DNA of 64,000 nt from Botrimarina mediterranea (GTDB taxonomy: Bacteria > Planctomycetota > Planctomycetia > Pirellulales > Lacipirellulaceae). The stretch is taken from positions 2,141,363 through 2,205,362 of the forward strand of contig NZ_CP036349.1 in assembly GCF_007753265.1 (NCBI RefSeq), in the 5' to 3' direction. The notes below the pieces were generated by a model that searched no databases, had not been told where the DNA came from, and was given only the letters and a program-made list of their open reading frames with translations. The translations under genes and the position numbers were made by a program. Shown one piece after another: positions 427 to 57,602 of the stretch; the first letter of the stretch is position 1, and the number at the start of each line of letters is the position of its first letter.

Positions 427-502
427 GGCGAGCCGGGAGCGTCAGCGACCGGAGTGTGCTTGGTACCCGCTTTCCTCCGGTCTCTGACGCTCCCGGCTCG
501 CC
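427..502. repeat. family A palindrome (GGCGAGCC...GGCTCGCC)
   Basis: An imperfect inverted repeat: the left arm (427-454) carries GGCGAGCCGG then GCGTCAGCG then CCGGAG, and the right arm (475-502) carries the complementary CTCCGG, CTGACGC and CCGGCTCGCC. It lies between two convergent genes and its outer end directly abuts the mgtE stop codon (503-505). Further copies or arms lie at 27615-27690, 34476-34511, 38878-38954 and 45256-45352. It may act as a bidirectional terminator, but no T-run follows. Confidence 0.85.
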
Positions 503-25970: not shown

Positions 25971-28343
25971 ATGCGCCTCGCAATCGTCCATCACCACCTC
26001 AACCGCGGGGGCGTCACGTCGGTCATCGTCAACCACCTCCGCAGCCTGGCAACGCTCCCGGCTGAGCGGCGGCCGGAACGTGTTGTGGTCCTTTACGACG
26101 GCCAGCGCGACGGCTGGCCCGACGCGTTGCCAGACGAGTTCCCGATCGAACTGGTCGTCGAACCGGCCCTCGCCTACGACCCACTCGATGCGAAAGCCGA
26201 CCCAGCCAAGCTCGCCATGACGCTCGCCCAACGCCTCGCCGATTGCGGCCTGGCGGCGGATAACACGCTCCTCCATACCCACAACCATTCTCTCGGTAAG
26301 AACGCGTCGCTCCCTGGCGCGTTGCAACGGTTGGCCGGCGATGGCTGGCGGATGCTGCTCCAGGTCCACGACTTCGCCGAGGACAACCGGCCCGACAACT
26401 ACCGCCACTTGCAAGACGCGATTGGCGAGACCGATCCCGATCGCCTCGGCGAGGTGGTCTATCCGCAGGGGAGCGGCCTTCATTACGCAACACTCACCGA
26501 ACGCGACGCGGACATCCTCCTGTCGGCGGGCGTCGCTGCGGAGCGCGTTCATCCGCTACCCAATCCCGCGGCGGAGTTTGGCGAGATGCCTTCGCAGGAC
26601 GAGGCGCGGGGGCGGGTCTTTGGGGCCCTTGGGCTGCCGTCCACGGCTAGGCTCGTCGTGTATCCGGTGCGGGGGATTCGGCGGAAGAACTTGGGGGAGA
26701 TGCTGCTCCTCTCGGCGCTTGCGCCGGAAGGGACCTACTTTGCCGTGACGCTGCGGCCGAAGAACCCCGTCGAAGCGGCGTCGTTCGACCGCTGGCGGCT
26801 GTTGGCGGAGTCGCTCGACCTGCCGTGCCGGTTCGACATCGGCTCGCCGCGCGAAGAAGGAGGCTACGGCTGCGACTTCAAAGACGCCCTCGCTGCCGCC
26901 GATGCGATCCTCACCACGAGCGTCGCCGAGGGGTTTGGGATGGTCTTCCTCGAGGCCTGGCTCGCCGGCAAGCCGCTGATCGGTCGCGATTTGCCGGAGA
27001 TCACCAGCGAGTTCAAAGCGGCTGGGATGCGGTTCCGATCGCTGTGGGCCGAGCTCCGCGCCGCGGCGTGCCTTGACGCGGACTTCGCCCAACTCACGCC
27101 CGCCGAGCAGGCCAACGTTATCCGCCAGACGACGCGCCCCGCCGTGCCGCTGGACCTTGGGATCGAAACCGCCGCAGCTGACGTCGCCGCCAACGCCGCG
27201 GTGGTCCGCGATGTCTACAGCGTCACGCGCTTGGGAGAACGGCTTGCTGAGGTGTATGGCCGCGTTCAAGCCGACGACAGTGAGGTGAACGCTGCCATTA
27301 GTGGCGCCGCCATCCTCGACTACTTTCAGAAGCCAGTACGGCAGCACGCCATCCGTATTGAGGGCGCCACAGCCGCCGAGGAGCAATCCCTCGTTACGAT
27401 CGTCCACCACAGCCGGCGGCCGCTCGACCCCCAGCCCACCGGCGAAGAGTCCGTCCTGCCGAAGCTGCCAGGCATCCGCGCCGTCGTCTTCGACGTGTAC
27501 GGCACGCTCCTCATCAGCGCGAGCGGCGACATCTCGCTGGCGAGTGAAGGGGCGCGTGGCGCGGCGGCGCTTGCTGCGCTTGAAGCGGTCTTCGGCGATC
27601 CAATGCGAGCAGCAGGTGAGCTGCAAGCGTCAGCGCCCGGAGTAGCGCAGGGCGCCGGCTTCACTCCGCGCTCTGACGCGTATGGCTCGCGAAGCGCGAG
27701 CGCCGGTTCGCGCTTTTTCGGTGATGAGATCGTCAAGCACCTTCACGCCGCCATCCATACTGCTCACTCCGAGTCGTCGAGCGCGCATCCCGAAGTCGAG
27801 ATCGTCGAAATCTGGAAACGCGTCCTCGCCAAGCTGTCGATCGCCGGGACCGAGGCTCAAGTCCGGCGGCTTGCCGTTGAGTTCGAGGTCCGGGCGAACC
27901 CCGTCGGGCCGATGCCCGGGGTGGCGGAGATGCTCGGCGAGCTCAACGAGGCGGGCCTCACGCTCGGGATCATCAGCAACGCCCAGTTCTACACCCCGTT
28001 GGCGATCGCGGCGCTGAGCGGCAAGCCGCTCGAGGTTTGGGGCTTTGAGACGCGGCACTGCCACTGGTCGTATCGGTGGGGCGAGGCGAAGCCGGGCAAG
28101 TTCCTCTACGAGAAGTGCGTGGAGGCTTTTGCGAACGAGGGCGTCACGCCGCAGGAGATTCTTTATATCGGCAACGACGTTCGCAACGACATCTGGCCTG
28201 CCCAAGAGGTCGGCATGCGGACCGCTCTTTTCGCCGGCGACGCACGCAGTCTGCGCTGGCGGCGTGACGACCAGCGGCTGGCCGAGGTGCGGCCAGACGC
28301 GGTCGTGACCGAGCTGCACCAGCTGCTGGAGATTGCCTTGTAG
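25971..28343 (+). CDS. glycosyltransferase fused to HAD-family phosphatase
   Basis: 790 aa. Residues 1-460 are a GT4-like glycosyltransferase (HHHLNRGGVTSVI at the N-terminus; the nucleotide-sugar motif EGFGMVFLEAWLAGKPLI at about 320). Residues 500-790 are a HAD hydrolase with all four motifs: VVFDVYGTLL (about 503), GIISNAQ (about 665), the lysine in EAKPGKFLYEKC (about 706) and YIGNDVRNDIWPA (about 725). Synthase plus phosphatase in one chain would transfer a sugar to a phosphorylated acceptor and remove the phosphate, matching the osmolyte genes that follow. Residues about 548-583 derive from a family A intergenic palindrome inserted in frame. Exact substrate unproven. Confidence 0.82.
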   Translation: MRLAIVHHHLNRGGVTSVIVNHLRSLATLPAERRPERVVVLYDGQRDGWPDALPDEFPIELVVEPALAYDPLDAKADPAKLAMTLAQRLADCGLAADNTLLHTHNHSLGKNASLPGALQRLAGDGWRMLLQVHDFAEDNRPDNYRHLQDAIGETDPDRLGEVVYPQGSGLHYATLTERDADILLSAGVAAERVHPLPNPAAEFGEMPSQDEARGRVFGALGLPSTARLVVYPVRGIRRKNLGEMLLLSALAPEGTYFAVTLRPKNPVEAASFDRWRLLAESLDLPCRFDIGSPREEGGYGCDFKDALAAADAILTTSVAEGFGMVFLEAWLAGKPLIGRDLPEITSEFKAAGMRFRSLWAELRAAACLDADFAQLTPAEQANVIRQTTRPAVPLDLGIETAAADVAANAAVVRDVYSVTRLGERLAEVYGRVQADDSEVNAAISGAAILDYFQKPVRQHAIRIEGATAAEEQSLVTIVHHSRRPLDPQPTGEESVLPKLPGIRAVVFDVYGTLLISASGDISLASEGARGAAALAALEAVFGDPMRAAGELQASAPGVAQGAGFTPRSDAYGSRSASAGSRFFGDEIVKHLHAAIHTAHSESSSAHPEVEIVEIWKRVLAKLSIAGTEAQVRRLAVEFEVRANPVGPMPGVAEMLGELNEAGLTLGIISNAQFYTPLAIAALSGKPLEVWGFETRHCHWSYRWGEAKPGKFLYEKCVEAFANEGVTPQEILYIGNDVRNDIWPAQEVGMRTALFAGDARSLRWRRDDQRLAEVRPDAVVTELHQLLEIAL
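27615..27715. repeat. family A palindrome inside a coding sequence
   Basis: The left arm (27615-27643: GGTGAGC, AAGCGTCAGCG, CCCGGAGT) and right arm (27659-27690: ACTCCG, CTCTGACGC, GGCTCGC) match the family A palindrome at 427-502. A second small hairpin, AAGCGCGA/TCGCGCTT followed by TTTTC (27692-27719), adjoins it. The whole lies in frame within the HAD half of the fusion gene, encoding the low-complexity stretch between MRAAGE and FFGDEIVKHL. Confidence 0.8.
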
Positions 28344-38486: not shown

Positions 38487-39101
38487 GCGGAGTCCTTCGA
38501 ACGCTTGCGAGCGGTAGCGAGTCGTGCGGTCTCCCCAGCGTCGCCGGGCGTCCGAAGAGACGCGGCGGATTAGGGGGACCGGGGTGAACCGGTAAGGAGT
38601 GGGGTCTGCGGTGGGAGTGAGTGTCGGCTGCGGGGCCGACAAACACAACTAGCGTCACGCCCGAAGGCGCGGTTCTGGGTATTGGTAGGGCTTCCCCAGC
38701 CGGTCCGCCCGGGGGCGTCGGTGATGAAGACCTAAGTCGAAACTAGTTAGGGGATTAACGCCTGTCAACGAACGGGGTAGAGTCCCCCCCAGAGGGCCGC
38801 AGAACCGGCGCCGCCGGAACCAGCGGGGCCGATAGGGGTCGAATCATTGGGGTTGGGCGGGTTGGTGGGTCACTCCAGGCGCTGACGAGTTCCGGCTCGC
38901 TGCGCAATTTTGAGTTCAGTTTCACACTTTTGGCGAGCCGTCGGCGTCAGCGCCCGGATTGAATTACCCGACAACTCTCCAGCCACGTCCAAGCTCCGCT
39001 TCCTAACGGACGAGGCTCAAAAAACCACTCTCTCCGCCTCCTTACGGAAGCGGCTCGACAAAGTTCTTCCACCAACCCCCGCCTCGTCCGCCTTGTCCGA
39101 G
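38487..39101. other. divergent intergenic region upstream of polA
   Basis: 615 bases between the coiled-coil gene and the proposed polA ATG. It contains the family A palindrome at 38878-38954 and otherwise no recognisable element. The polA frame is open from TTG 38910, so up to 64 further residues could belong to Pol I, but part of them would be encoded by the repeat. Both promoters are expected between about 38490 and 38870. Confidence 0.5.
38878..38954. repeat. family A palindrome, arms in reversed order
   Basis: A right-type arm (38878-38900: GGCGCTGAC then CCGGCTCGC) precedes a left-type arm (38932-38954: GCGAGCCG then GGCGTCAGCGCC), the opposite order to the copy at 427-502. The pair still forms a stem, with an AT-rich 31-base loop. 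It lies in the leader or 5' end of polA. Confidence 0.75.
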
Positions 39102-41834
39102 ATGCTCCCCGCCGGATCGACCGTTTACGTCGTCGATTGCCATTCGCTCATCTTCCAGGTGTTCCACGCCATCCCGGAGATGACGAGCCCCCGGGGCGAG
39201 CCGGTGAACGCCGTTTTCGGATTTACGAAGGACCTGCTGAAGCTGATCGAGGACAAGCGGCCCGACGCTTTGATCTGTGCGTTCGACCCCCCCGGCGACA
39301 CGTTCCGTCACGAGCTCTACCCGGTCTACAAAGGGGAACGCAGCGAGACGCCGACCGAGCTGCGGTCGCAGTTCCCCAAGATCCACCAGATCGTTGAGGC
39401 CCTGCGGATCCCGATCATCTCGGTTCCGAAGTTCGAGGCGGACGACGTGCTTGCGACCGTGGCCCGGTTGTGCGACGAGTCGCAGGTCTTCTGCCGGCTG
39501 GTGACGGGGGACAAGGACTCCCGCCAGCTGATCACGAACCACGTCGCCGTCTACAACATCCGCAAGGACCACGTTTACGACGAGGTTGCGCTGCTGGCGG
39601 ACTGGGGTGTCCGGCCCGATCAGGTCGTCGATTTCCAGTCGCTGGTGGGCGACAAGATCGACAACATCCCCGGCGTGCCGCTGATCGGGCCGAAGATCGC
39701 CAAGGAACTGCTCGACGAGTTCGGAACGCTCGATCGGGTGCTCGACAACGCCGACCGTGTCAAAGGCGCCAAGCGGCAACAGAACCTGAAAGAGGGCCGC
39801 GAGCTGGCCCTGATCTCACGGCAGCTGGTGCGGCTCGATCAGTACGTGCCCGTCGAGATCGACTGGCAGGCGGCGCGGGTCGGCGACTTCGACGCCGAAC
39901 GTCTCGCCGAGCTGTGCGCTGATTTCGGCTTCCGCAGCATCGCCGAACGGATGGCGGCCCTCTCTAGCGGCGGCGCGGCAGATACGGCGCCGAGCGACTG
40001 GGAGGCCAACTACCGGGCCATCGACACGCCCGAGGCGCTGGCGGAACTGGCGAAGACGCTCGCCGCTTGCGAGGTGATCTCGGTCGATACCGAGACCACC
40101 AGCGTCAACCCGCGCGAGGCGGAGCTGGTGGGCTTCTCGTTCGCCTGGGCCGAGGGCGAGGCGGCGTACGTCCCCGTCCGCGGGCCGGCGGGCGACCGTG
40201 TGCTGCCGCTGGCGGATGTCCTGGCGGTGCTCGGGCCGATCCTTGAGGACGAGTCGATCAAGAAGATCGGGCAGAACCTGAAGTACGACATGATCGTGCT
40301 CCGCGGCGCCGGCGTGACGATGCGCGGGCTGTCGTTCGACACGATGATCGCCAGTTATCTGCTCGACGCCGGCGAGCGGACGCACAACCTCGACGTGCTC
40401 TCCGACCGCTACCTCGGCCACACGACAGTCAAGATCAGCGAGCTGATCGGCTCGGGCAAGAACCAGAAGCGGATGGACGAGGTCCCCGTCGCCCAGATTG
40501 CCGAGTACGCCGCCGAAGACGCCGACGTGCCGCTGCGGCTCTGGCCGATGCTGCACGAACGGCTCGACCGCGACGGGCTGCTGCCGCTGTCGGACGACCT
40601 CGAAACGCCGCTCGTCGAAGTGCTCGCCGAGATGGAGTGGAACGGCGTCCGCGTCGATGTCGATCGCCTCGCCGAGCTGAGCAAGCAGTTCGCGTTGCGC
40701 TCGCAGGAGCTTGCCGAACAGATCGAAGAGATCGTCGGCCACCCGTTCAACCTGGCGTCGCCGAAGCAACTTGCCGAGGTGCTATTCCAAGAGATCGGCC
40801 TCAAGCCGATCAAGCGCACGAAGACGGGCCCCTCGACCGACGCCGCGGTGCTCGAAGAGCTCGCCGCGCTGCACCCGTTGCCGCGGCTGATCGTGGAGCA
40901 CCGCCAGTACGCCAAGCTACGCGGCACCTACGTCGATGCACTGCCGCAGCTGGTGAACGCCAAGACGGGCCGCGTCCACTGCTCGTTCAATCAAGTCGTC
41001 GCGGCGACGGGGCGGCTGAGCTGCAGCGACCCGAACCTGCAGAACATCCCGATCCGCACCGACGAAGGCCGTCAGATCCGCTCGGCGTTTACCGCCGGTG
41101 AGGCGGGTTGGAAGCTCGTCGCGGCGGACTACTCGCAGATCGAGCTGCGCGTGCTGGCCCACTTCAGCGAGGACGAAACGCTCTGCAAGGCGTTCGCCGA
41201 GGGGCAGGACATCCACACGCTCGTCGCCAGCCAGGTGAACGGCGTCGGGCTCGACGAGGTCACCTCCGAGCAACGCCGCGGCGCCAAGGCGGTCAACTTC
41301 GGCATCATCTACGGCCAGAGCCCGTTCGGCCTAGCCAAGACGCTCGGCATCCCCAAAGAAGTCGCGGCGCAATTCATCGCCGACTACTTCGCGCGCTACC
41401 CGGGCGTCATGGACTTCATGCTCGACACGCTCGACACAGCCGCGCGGCAGGGATACGTGGAGACGTTGCTGGGTCGGCGTCGGGCGATCGCCGGCGTCCG
41501 CAAACCGGGACCACCGAAGGGCGCGCTCTTCGACGACCGCCCGCAGCCGCTCCAGATGAACCTCCCCGAGCGCACCGCCGTCAACACAGTGATTCAAGGC
41601 ACTGCGGCCGACCTGATCAAACTAGCAATGCTCGCCGTCAGCCGCCGCCTCAAGGACGAGGGCCTGCGCACGAAGCTGATCCTTCAGATCCACGACGAAC
41701 TGGTGTTCGACGCACCGGAAGAAGAAGTCGAACAGCTGACCACCCTGATCACCGAAGAGATGCAAGGCGTCGCCAACCTCCGCACGCCGCTGGCGGTCGA
41801 CATCGGCGTAGCGGACAACTGGGCGGAGTGCTGA
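39102..41834 (+). CDS. polA: DNA polymerase I
   Basis: 910 aa from ATG 39102. Three modules: 5'-3' flap nuclease (about 1-285, VYVVDCHSLIFQVFHAI, EADDVLATVA, GDKIDNIPGVPLIGPK), 3'-5' proofreading exonuclease (about 315-500), and polymerase (about 510-905). Proofreading residues are intact: VDTETTS (about 329), IGQNLKYDMIVL and YAAEDADVPL. Polymerase motifs are DYSQIELRVLAHF (A, about 676), AVNFGIIYGQSPFGL (B, about 731) and QIHDELVFD (C, about 863). The length matches the E. coli enzyme. The start could lie further upstream (frame open from 38910). It functions in repair and Okazaki fragment maturation. Confidence 0.95.
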   Translation: MLPAGSTVYVVDCHSLIFQVFHAIPEMTSPRGEPVNAVFGFTKDLLKLIEDKRPDALICAFDPPGDTFRHELYPVYKGERSETPTELRSQFPKIHQIVEALRIPIISVPKFEADDVLATVARLCDESQVFCRLVTGDKDSRQLITNHVAVYNIRKDHVYDEVALLADWGVRPDQVVDFQSLVGDKIDNIPGVPLIGPKIAKELLDEFGTLDRVLDNADRVKGAKRQQNLKEGRELALISRQLVRLDQYVPVEIDWQAARVGDFDAERLAELCADFGFRSIAERMAALSSGGAADTAPSDWEANYRAIDTPEALAELAKTLAACEVISVDTETTSVNPREAELVGFSFAWAEGEAAYVPVRGPAGDRVLPLADVLAVLGPILEDESIKKIGQNLKYDMIVLRGAGVTMRGLSFDTMIASYLLDAGERTHNLDVLSDRYLGHTTVKISELIGSGKNQKRMDEVPVAQIAEYAAEDADVPLRLWPMLHERLDRDGLLPLSDDLETPLVEVLAEMEWNGVRVDVDRLAELSKQFALRSQELAEQIEEIVGHPFNLASPKQLAEVLFQEIGLKPIKRTKTGPSTDAAVLEELAALHPLPRLIVEHRQYAKLRGTYVDALPQLVNAKTGRVHCSFNQVVAATGRLSCSDPNLQNIPIRTDEGRQIRSAFTAGEAGWKLVAADYSQIELRVLAHFSEDETLCKAFAEGQDIHTLVASQVNGVGLDEVTSEQRRGAKAVNFGIIYGQSPFGLAKTLGIPKEVAAQFIADYFARYPGVMDFMLDTLDTAARQGYVETLLGRRRAIAGVRKPGPPKGALFDDRPQPLQMNLPERTAVNTVIQGTAADLIKLAMLAVSRRLKDEGLRTKLILQIHDELVFDAPEEEVEQLTTLITEEMQGVANLRTPLAVDIGVADNWAEC

Positions 41835-44773: not shown

Positions 44774-45250
44774 ATGCCGAACGTGATTGAACCCGCCGCT
44801 GACGCCGCCAAGAACGCCCGCTATGCGGTCGTCGTCTCGGAGTGGAACAAGGCCGTCACCGCCAAGCTCGCCGACGGCGCCGTCGCGAGCTTTAAGGAAG
44901 CGGGCGTTGCGGAAGAGGGGGTCGATGTCGTTTGGGTGCCGGGCGCTTGGGAGATCCCTGTCGTTGTGCAGCGGCTCGCCGACACGTGCCGCTATGCGGG
45001 GATCGTGACCCTCGGCGCGGTCATCAAGGGCGAGACGGCCCATGACCACTGGATCAACCACGGCGTCACCGAAGCCCTGATGCGGATCGCCACCGAGCAC
45101 TCGCTGCCGGTGTTGTTCGGCGTGCTGATGTGCGACACGATGGAGCAAGCCCTCAGCCGCGCCGGCGGCGCCGTGGGCAACAAGGGCGTCGAGTGCGCCG
45201 AAGCCGCTTTGCGGATGGCGGCGATCCTCAAGGCGCTGCCCACGTCGTAG
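44774..45250 (+). CDS. ribH: 6,7-dimethyl-8-ribityllumazine synthase
   Basis: 158 aa, penultimate enzyme of riboflavin synthesis, joining the pyrimidine intermediate to 3,4-dihydroxy-2-butanone 4-phosphate. Substrate-binding motifs are VVSEWNKAVTAKL (about 19-31), VPGAWEIPVVVQ (about 55), and the phosphate/His motif GAVIKGETAHDHWINHG (about 80-96), where the His of HDHW is the likely catalytic residue. PVLFGVLMCDTMEQA follows. The length is normal for the icosahedral or pentameric enzyme. nusB follows, as in many bacteria, though separated by 312 bases. Confidence 0.95.
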   Translation: MPNVIEPAADAAKNARYAVVVSEWNKAVTAKLADGAVASFKEAGVAEEGVDVVWVPGAWEIPVVVQRLADTCRYAGIVTLGAVIKGETAHDHWINHGVTEALMRIATEHSLPVLFGVLMCDTMEQALSRAGGAVGNKGVECAEAALRMAAILKALPTS

Positions 45251-45255
45251 TTGCC

Positions 45256-45352
45256 GGTTCGCCGGGAGCGTCAGCGACCGGAGTGAAGCGGGTACCCCCC
45301 TGGCCAGCCGTGACCCCCGACGCACTCCGGGCGCTCACGCTGACGGCTCGCC
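45256..45352. repeat. family A palindrome between ribH and nusB
   Basis: Left arm 45256-45297 (GCCGGGAGCGTCAGCGACC then GGAGTGAAGCGGGTACCC) and right arm 45322-45352 (GCACTCCGGGCG, CACGCTGACGGCTCGCC) begin 5 bases after the ribH stop. The rest of the 312-base gap (45353-45562) shows no other structure and should hold the nusB promoter. Confidence 0.85.
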
Positions 45353-48882: not shown

Positions 48883-48958
48883 GCCGAGCCGCGACCGTCA
48901 GGGAGCGACCAAGAGAGTAGCAACGTCGATGGTCGCTCCCTGACGGTCGCGGCTCGGC
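48883..48958. repeat. perfect 28-base palindrome next to cdd
   Basis: Arms 48883-48910 and 48931-48958 are exact complements (outer words GCCGAGCCGCGACCGTCAGG / CCTGACGGTCGCGGCTCGGC). The loop is 20 bases. It lies just after the porin terminator and one base from the convergent cdd stop, so it probably ends cdd transcription. A related element (CGCGCCCGTCAGG) is at 57404-57472. Confidence 0.9.
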
Positions 48959-57288: not shown

Positions 57289-57602
57289 GGGGCGTGGTCC
57301 ACAGCACAGTGATGGCGGCCTGTTTTGCGCAAACTACGGCGTCGGGCGGCCTTACCGCAATCCCGACCGCAAAACCCCGGTGTTTTTCACGATCGGTCGT
57401 GTCTTTGAACCGCGCCCGTCAGGAAGCGGAATTCCCCATTCCGACTCCGCTACCTAACGGGCGCGGCTCAAACGGTCCTCGAGCGAAAACACCGGGGATT
57501 CAGCGGCGCCAATCGCTGGGCCCCGGGGTTTAGTACCTTAGAGACGGTCAGCCCCGCGTCGCGGCTGCCGAGACGTTACCCGTGCCCCGACTTTTCTGGA
57601 GA
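57289..57602. other. divergent intergenic region with nested palindrome
   Basis: 314 bases between two divergent genes. An inner palindrome (57404-57472) sits inside a second pair, CCCCGGTGTTTT at 57375-57386 and AAAACACCGGGG at 57487-57498, making a nested structure. Promoters of both genes must flank or overlap it. Nothing else is seen. Confidence 0.6.
57404..57472. repeat. inner palindrome, divergent intergenic region
   Basis: Left arm 57404-57430 (TTTGAACCGCGCCCGTCAGG) and right arm 57446-57472 (AACGGGCGCGGCTCAAA) form a 27-base imperfect stem. It has the CCGTCAGG word in common with the palindrome at 48883-48958. Confidence 0.85.

Follow-up and report, generated by a model that had tools for sequence, protein, structure and literature searches.

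A REP-like palindrome, probably mobile, within the reading frame of a glycosyltransferase-HAD gene of Botrimarina mediterranea

Background

Protein-coding REP-like elements are already known from Rickettsia and from other bacteria (PMC3733652, PMC10969869), and the case described here is a further example. As far as the account of Di Nocera et al. (2013; PMC3733652) details them, the REPs of the GTAG and CGTC super-families that were found inside genes are small stem-loops, which occur mostly as inverted dimers and mostly between genes, with some in frame; repair genes such as uvrA are prominent among the REP-carrying genes, REPs occupy nearly the same position in two recB genes of Xanthomonas, and the CGTC repeats, which stem from five other phyla, are in that account not tied to transposase genes. 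The class 3 TnpA-Y1 proteins, as characterised in the relevant part of PMC6006769, are found in Planctomycetes, bear a Y----Q signature and are encoded by genes that are flanked by structures, possibly many per genome.

The palindrome studied here resembles the GTAG and CGTC REPs, to the extent that PMC3733652 portrays them, in that it concerns stem-loop inverted dimers that are mostly intergenic and sometimes in frame (uvrA included), and differs from them in that there is no tag at the foot of the stem and CGTC spans stem and loop. Unlike the CGTC REPs, for which the same account gives no transposase link, the palindromes here flank Y1 genes. The likeness to the Rickettsia palindromic elements is one of behaviour: as outlined in PMC10969869 and PMC3733652, these are also palindromes of ~100 bp that occur in frame in unrelated genes and encode a recurrent peptide, whereas here, set against the outline in PMC10969869, the majority of arms lie outside genes, and there are transposase genes that have copies on their flanks. 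With TnpA-Y1 class 3, in so far as PMC6006769 defines it, the system shares the occurrence in Planctomycetes, the Y----Q signature and the flanking structures; the class foot is CnGA, and here the bases before the stem read GCGAG. The enterobacterial RU elements, as summarised in PMC2759123, are likewise small mobile repeats with open frames inside genes, but they are longer (103-168 bp), reside in other bacteria and are not REP dimers. No report of in-frame palindromes in planctomycetes was found in the open-licence literature.

With the present case, protein-coding REP palindromes become known from a planctomycete-like genus as well, in which occupied and empty sites, palindromes of several subtypes and candidate transposases are found together. 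Because of this coexistence, the questions that have been open since the Rickettsia elements (the mode of movement, whether an insert is tolerated or used, and repeated hits at the same site) become testable by species comparison and by a purified-protein assay. The unusual part is the presence of same-site palindromes of different subtype in orthologues.

Results and Discussion

The host gene and the palindrome inside it

We analysed a window of 64,000 nucleotides from B. mediterranea and compared the genome of this species (G000, 5.87 Mb) with other genomes, including three of the same genus (G001, G002 and G003). In all likelihood, a REP-like mobile palindrome has inserted in frame in the HAD half of a glycosyltransferase-HAD gene (Table 1) and is now translated, a HuH/Y1 transposase having acted in trans. 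The palindrome, made of two inverted stem-loop units, would have landed in the loop between HAD motif I and the remaining HAD half; its length would have preserved the frame and, since the frame used has no stop, the insert would be read as a Gly/Ala/Ser-rich stretch. The insertion would have occurred on single-stranded DNA, most likely by a HuH/Y1 transposase of the palindrome-flanked kind.

Table 1. Features of the host gene, its insert and the intergenic copies, in positions of the window
Feature	Position	Strand	Basis and remarks
Glycosyltransferase-HAD fusion gene with insert	25971-28343	+	open frame, 790 aa
Net insertion, about 36 codons	27606-27719 (approximate, edges +/- several codons)	+	protein alignment with 21 relatives; site DNA of G001/G002
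Left arm	27618-27643	+	inverted repeat, GAGC(T/C)...GCGTCAGCGCCCGGAGT; exact family core; peptide GELQASAPGV
Right arm, decayed	27663-27688	-	inverted repeat; 2 mismatches with the core; + strand peptide TPRSDAYGS
Second small hairpin	27692-27715	+	inverted repeat; contains GCCGGTTCGC
Intergenic copy of the HAD-gene palindrome, near perfect	427-502	.	outside high-scoring open frames
Intergenic copy	about 45256-45352	.	just past the open frame ending at 45247; outside high-scoring frames

The first-pass annotation of the window had recognised both arms of a family palindrome within the HAD half, had located other copies between genes and had judged the surrounding HAD motifs to be intact and in frame, and on all of these points it agrees with what we found. 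Pfam matches of the gene to Hydrolase/HAD_2 lay above the cut-off, with PF00702 covering residues 502-748 around the arms; the matches to glycosyltransferase group 1 fell below it. G003 encodes a full-length orthologue (64% identity to the glycosyltransferase-HAD protein). The glycosyltransferase and HAD halves form one open frame in 4/4 genomes of the genus (including L032-L034) and separate frames in many relatives.

The arms are 77% complementary, with a spacer of 19 nt, and the predicted peptide includes GELQASAPGVAQGAGFTPR. The insert is ~10 residues longer than the palindrome, and this surplus (the second hairpin) has no family feature to explain it. The second hairpin had been announced together with a T-run after it, and both are present; that it would be a repeat of its own was rejected, because a search of the genome with up to 3 mismatches returned a single match, the hairpin itself. 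The cap region had been proposed as the place of the insert, and the insert may indeed lie there, judging from its position after HAD motif I and ahead of the later motifs; a model of the HAD half predicted without an alignment had a mean pLDDT of 39.9, too low to be used. The insert is presumably tolerated rather than used.

That the insert might have been retained for its RNA hairpins, acting in the transcript (pausing, termination, stability) with the protein change as a side effect, we consider improbable: two hairpins and a T-run after the second one would suit such a role, but the arms of this copy have decayed to the complementarity given above and the gene runs on for ~600 bases with intact HAD motifs.

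The repeat family

Judged by itself the palindrome is not striking, as the RNA fold of the stretch is modestly unusual (z -1.92, with an equally good fold in 8/200 shuffles) and the raw inverted-repeat score is 12.0 for the insert against 13.0 in a relative without insert (L036). The case therefore rests on family identity and not on the strength of the palindrome. Both values might be taken to mean that the palindrome arose by chance in a native linker that is rich in GC and of low complexity. This was rejected as highly improbable, since the insert carries the exact 17-base arm core GCGTCAGCGNCCGGAGT, which has 59 exact sites in the 5.87-Mb genome and 0 for the reversed pattern, and since the stretch is absent from 17/21 relatives. 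Within the window, the core was found at 11 sites with at most 3 mismatches (shuffles: mean 2.7, maximum 6). With the wider pattern GAGCCGNNNNCGTNAGNNNNCGGNG we recovered 270 arms in G000 (reversed 0), 67 in G001, 29 in G003 and 0 in G002; of the 59 genomes searched, 24 had one arm or more. The reversed controls were empty in most genomes and never exceeded 2 per strand. A genome search with the arms had been suggested as a check, and it thus revealed copies genome-wide.

We class the element as an inverted dimer of the REP type: its copies are many and mainly intergenic, and its units are stem-loops of the 20-40 nt kind that are often inverted dimers, with 53 two-arm pairs among the 141 G000 site clusters around the matches listed and a stem pairing above that of shuffles. 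Each arm can fold on itself into an 8-position stem with a GTNA loop, and in 63 distinct arms 151/252 free stem positions were paired (shuffles: mean 106.9, maximum 126, n=2000); the commonest arm pairs only 2 of its 4 free positions and has two mismatched stem positions. The unpaired CGTC tag 5' of an 8-9 bp stem that marks the CGTC super-family was not found, as the C is part of the stem, closing it around a GTNA loop, nor was GTAG at the stem foot, as in the GTAG super-family; in the copies listed, GCGAG precedes the stem. The consensus palindrome has no stop in 2/3 forward frames.

Other arms in the window include a palindrome of another subtype (GAGCCGCGACCGTCAGGGAGCGACC) between open frames at 48886-48955, with 25/25 arm bases complementary, a lone arm of the CCCGTTAGG subtype at 57445-57469, and two arms in the same orientation at 38994-39056, close to the upstream end of a frame of 982 codons (38886-41831) whose start codon may follow them. 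Elsewhere in G000, the right arms of the pairs at 4094374, 4772905, 5327750, 5781940 and 5829903 finish in GCTGACCAggattatgcaa.ggct and not in the usual tip, which is a recurrent alternative end.

Filled and empty sites in relatives

We collected 30 loci of the gene, of which 22 (21 relatives) could be anchored and aligned; in the other eight an anchor was missing, the first in six and the second in two. The relatives compared are different species, so that each comparison of a filled with an empty site is one between species and not within one. The first-pass annotation had anticipated an insertion absent from homologues, and the alignment bears this out for the majority: 17/21 alignable relatives, G001 and G002 among them, lack some 36 residues between MRAA and FFGDEIV. 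Between the anchors there are 110 residues in the window protein, 73-82 in these 17, 96 in G003 (L032) and 95-116 in L053, L054 and L055 (order-level rows, one other genus); in the latter three the stretch is longer and contains no comparable palindrome. In G003, the insert at the same place is itself a family palindrome. It belongs to a sister subtype, GCCACGTCAGTGGTC, which has further copies elsewhere in G003, so that the HAD-gene palindromes of G000 and G003 differ in subtype. GGCGAG stands before the insert in ilvD and at the HAD site of G001, which are too few sites for a target preference to be derived.

The two filled sites may derive from separate insertions or from one old insertion in the ancestor of G000 and G003, followed by precise loss in G001 and G002 and by later rewriting of the arms per genome (gene conversion or a new element in the old one). 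The old insertion competes with the separate insertions and not with the main reading; we hold it to be possible, though on balance doubtful. It finds support in the 10-mer GCCGGTTCGC, which adjoins the common downstream flank in both genomes, in G003 as the right tip of the palindrome and in G000 as part of the second hairpin (17/2000 shuffles scored as high), and which hints at a shared origin. The Lhr-type helicase speaks for it as well: in one and the same place, G001 and G003 have tail-to-tail arms that are separated by a similar spacer of 18 nt and yet differ in subtype. On the other hand, G001 is the sister of G000 (support 96/96) and has a clean site, so that two exact losses would be required; the G003 arms (26/27 bases complementary) are too well preserved to be a relic, unless they have been rewritten; and the metG linker, which has a left arm in G001, a right arm in G003 and none in G000 or G002, points to separate events. 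Gene by gene, metG is best explained by repeated insertion into tolerant linkers and the helicase by rewriting in place.

More speculatively still, certain protein linkers could be standing docking sites, in which a palindrome is replaced in place by one of another subtype, both arms together and with the frame kept, through gene conversion or the action of a REP transposase; we regard this as rather unlikely. If it were true, the linker peptide would be swapped like a cassette.

Candidate transposases

Matches to PF01797 (Y1 transposase) numbered 5 in G000 and 92 in 12 relatives. We examined 75 Y1 loci, two of them overlapping: the 5 of G000, another 30 that the search supplied and 40 picked by hand. 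The latter were mostly weaker matches, picked after one such gene had been found near arms, and the flanked fraction is therefore not unbiased: arms were present at 11/75 loci (2/5 of G000, 1/30 search-given, 8/40 hand-picked), on both sides in 10 and on one side in 1. The pattern used for the flanks was wider than GAGCCGNNNNCGTNAGNNNNCGGNG, and the 64 arm-less loci were the sole comparison. The flanked genes display the combination known from REP-associated Y1 class 3, i.e. flanking structures together with the Y....Q motif (11/11) and the HuH motif (10/11). As to the class 3 foot CnGA, the bases before the stem are GCGAG, with the unit in a provisional orientation.

In five species (L213, L214, L220, L227, L235) the arms that flank the Y1 gene are of the GCG subtype, as in the HAD-gene palindrome; the L213-type transposase gene is flanked by the GCGTNAGCG subtype. 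Among the 5 loci of G000, the GCGTCAGCG subtype does not border any intact Y1 gene, the arms at the two flanked genes being of other subtypes. The cut-off of REP_Tyr_transpos (NF047646) was not reached, L141 scoring 46.6 bits against 80, and L142 and L207 matched only NF033573 (ncbifam), below its cut-off. The mobility of these elements, which had been proposed from the window, appears well supported at the level of gene neighbourhoods, because palindromes flank both sides of 10/75 Y1 loci.

In-frame arms in other genes

Arms lie in coding frames in 4/115 cases in G000, 7/67 in G001 and 6/29 in G003, far under the shares of random positions in the same loci (57%, 63% and 72%), from which it follows that the arms avoid genes. 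A codon-score test in G000 placed 10 of the 141 sites from the matches listed in a scored open frame, and six were retained: the HAD gene, ilvD, a uvrA-like gene, an EF-G gene, a DNA methylase and one gene without Pfam match in the scanned piece (sigma-like by eye). The sites at 917388, 1961118, 3633048 and 5810748 were dropped as chance, the GAGCC tip being missing (judged by eye). The in-frame arms of G003 are in pheT, metG, a YfbK-like gene, the Lhr-type helicase (twice) and the HAD gene, and those of G001 in metG, ilvD, the helicase, a uvrA, a transporter (twice) and the gene without Pfam match. The gene names derive from family searches on pieces, which supported uvrA, ilvD, EF-G, pheT, metG, helicase, methylase and YfbK; transporter was below the cut-off.

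The in-frame arms would encode mostly GEP.ASA.G on the left and TP.ADA.GSP on the right. With copies in frame in other genes of three species, the suggestion that the element can become protein-coding is upheld, translation being deduced from the open frame. The clean shared case is ilvD, in which one arm (GEPGASATG) is common to G000 and G001 and absent in 7 other relatives; the ilvD of G007 has a longer stretch of unrelated sequence, so that length alone is no proof there. The linkers of EF-G and of the methyltransferase vary in all relatives and therefore offer no clean empty site. In the uvrA-like gene of G000 the UvrA match stops just upstream of the insert, which would thus sit where an additional C-terminal part is joined on.

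A transporter-like gene of G001 (L335, G001:C4:173312-175149) contains a whole GCCAC-subtype palindrome in frame (GEPATSVVGV...PPTTNGAGSP), and its peptide is nearly identical to that of the HAD insert in G003. Eight relatives (L160, L154-L158, L165, L173) have uvrA-like open frames of about 2,350-2,630 codons.
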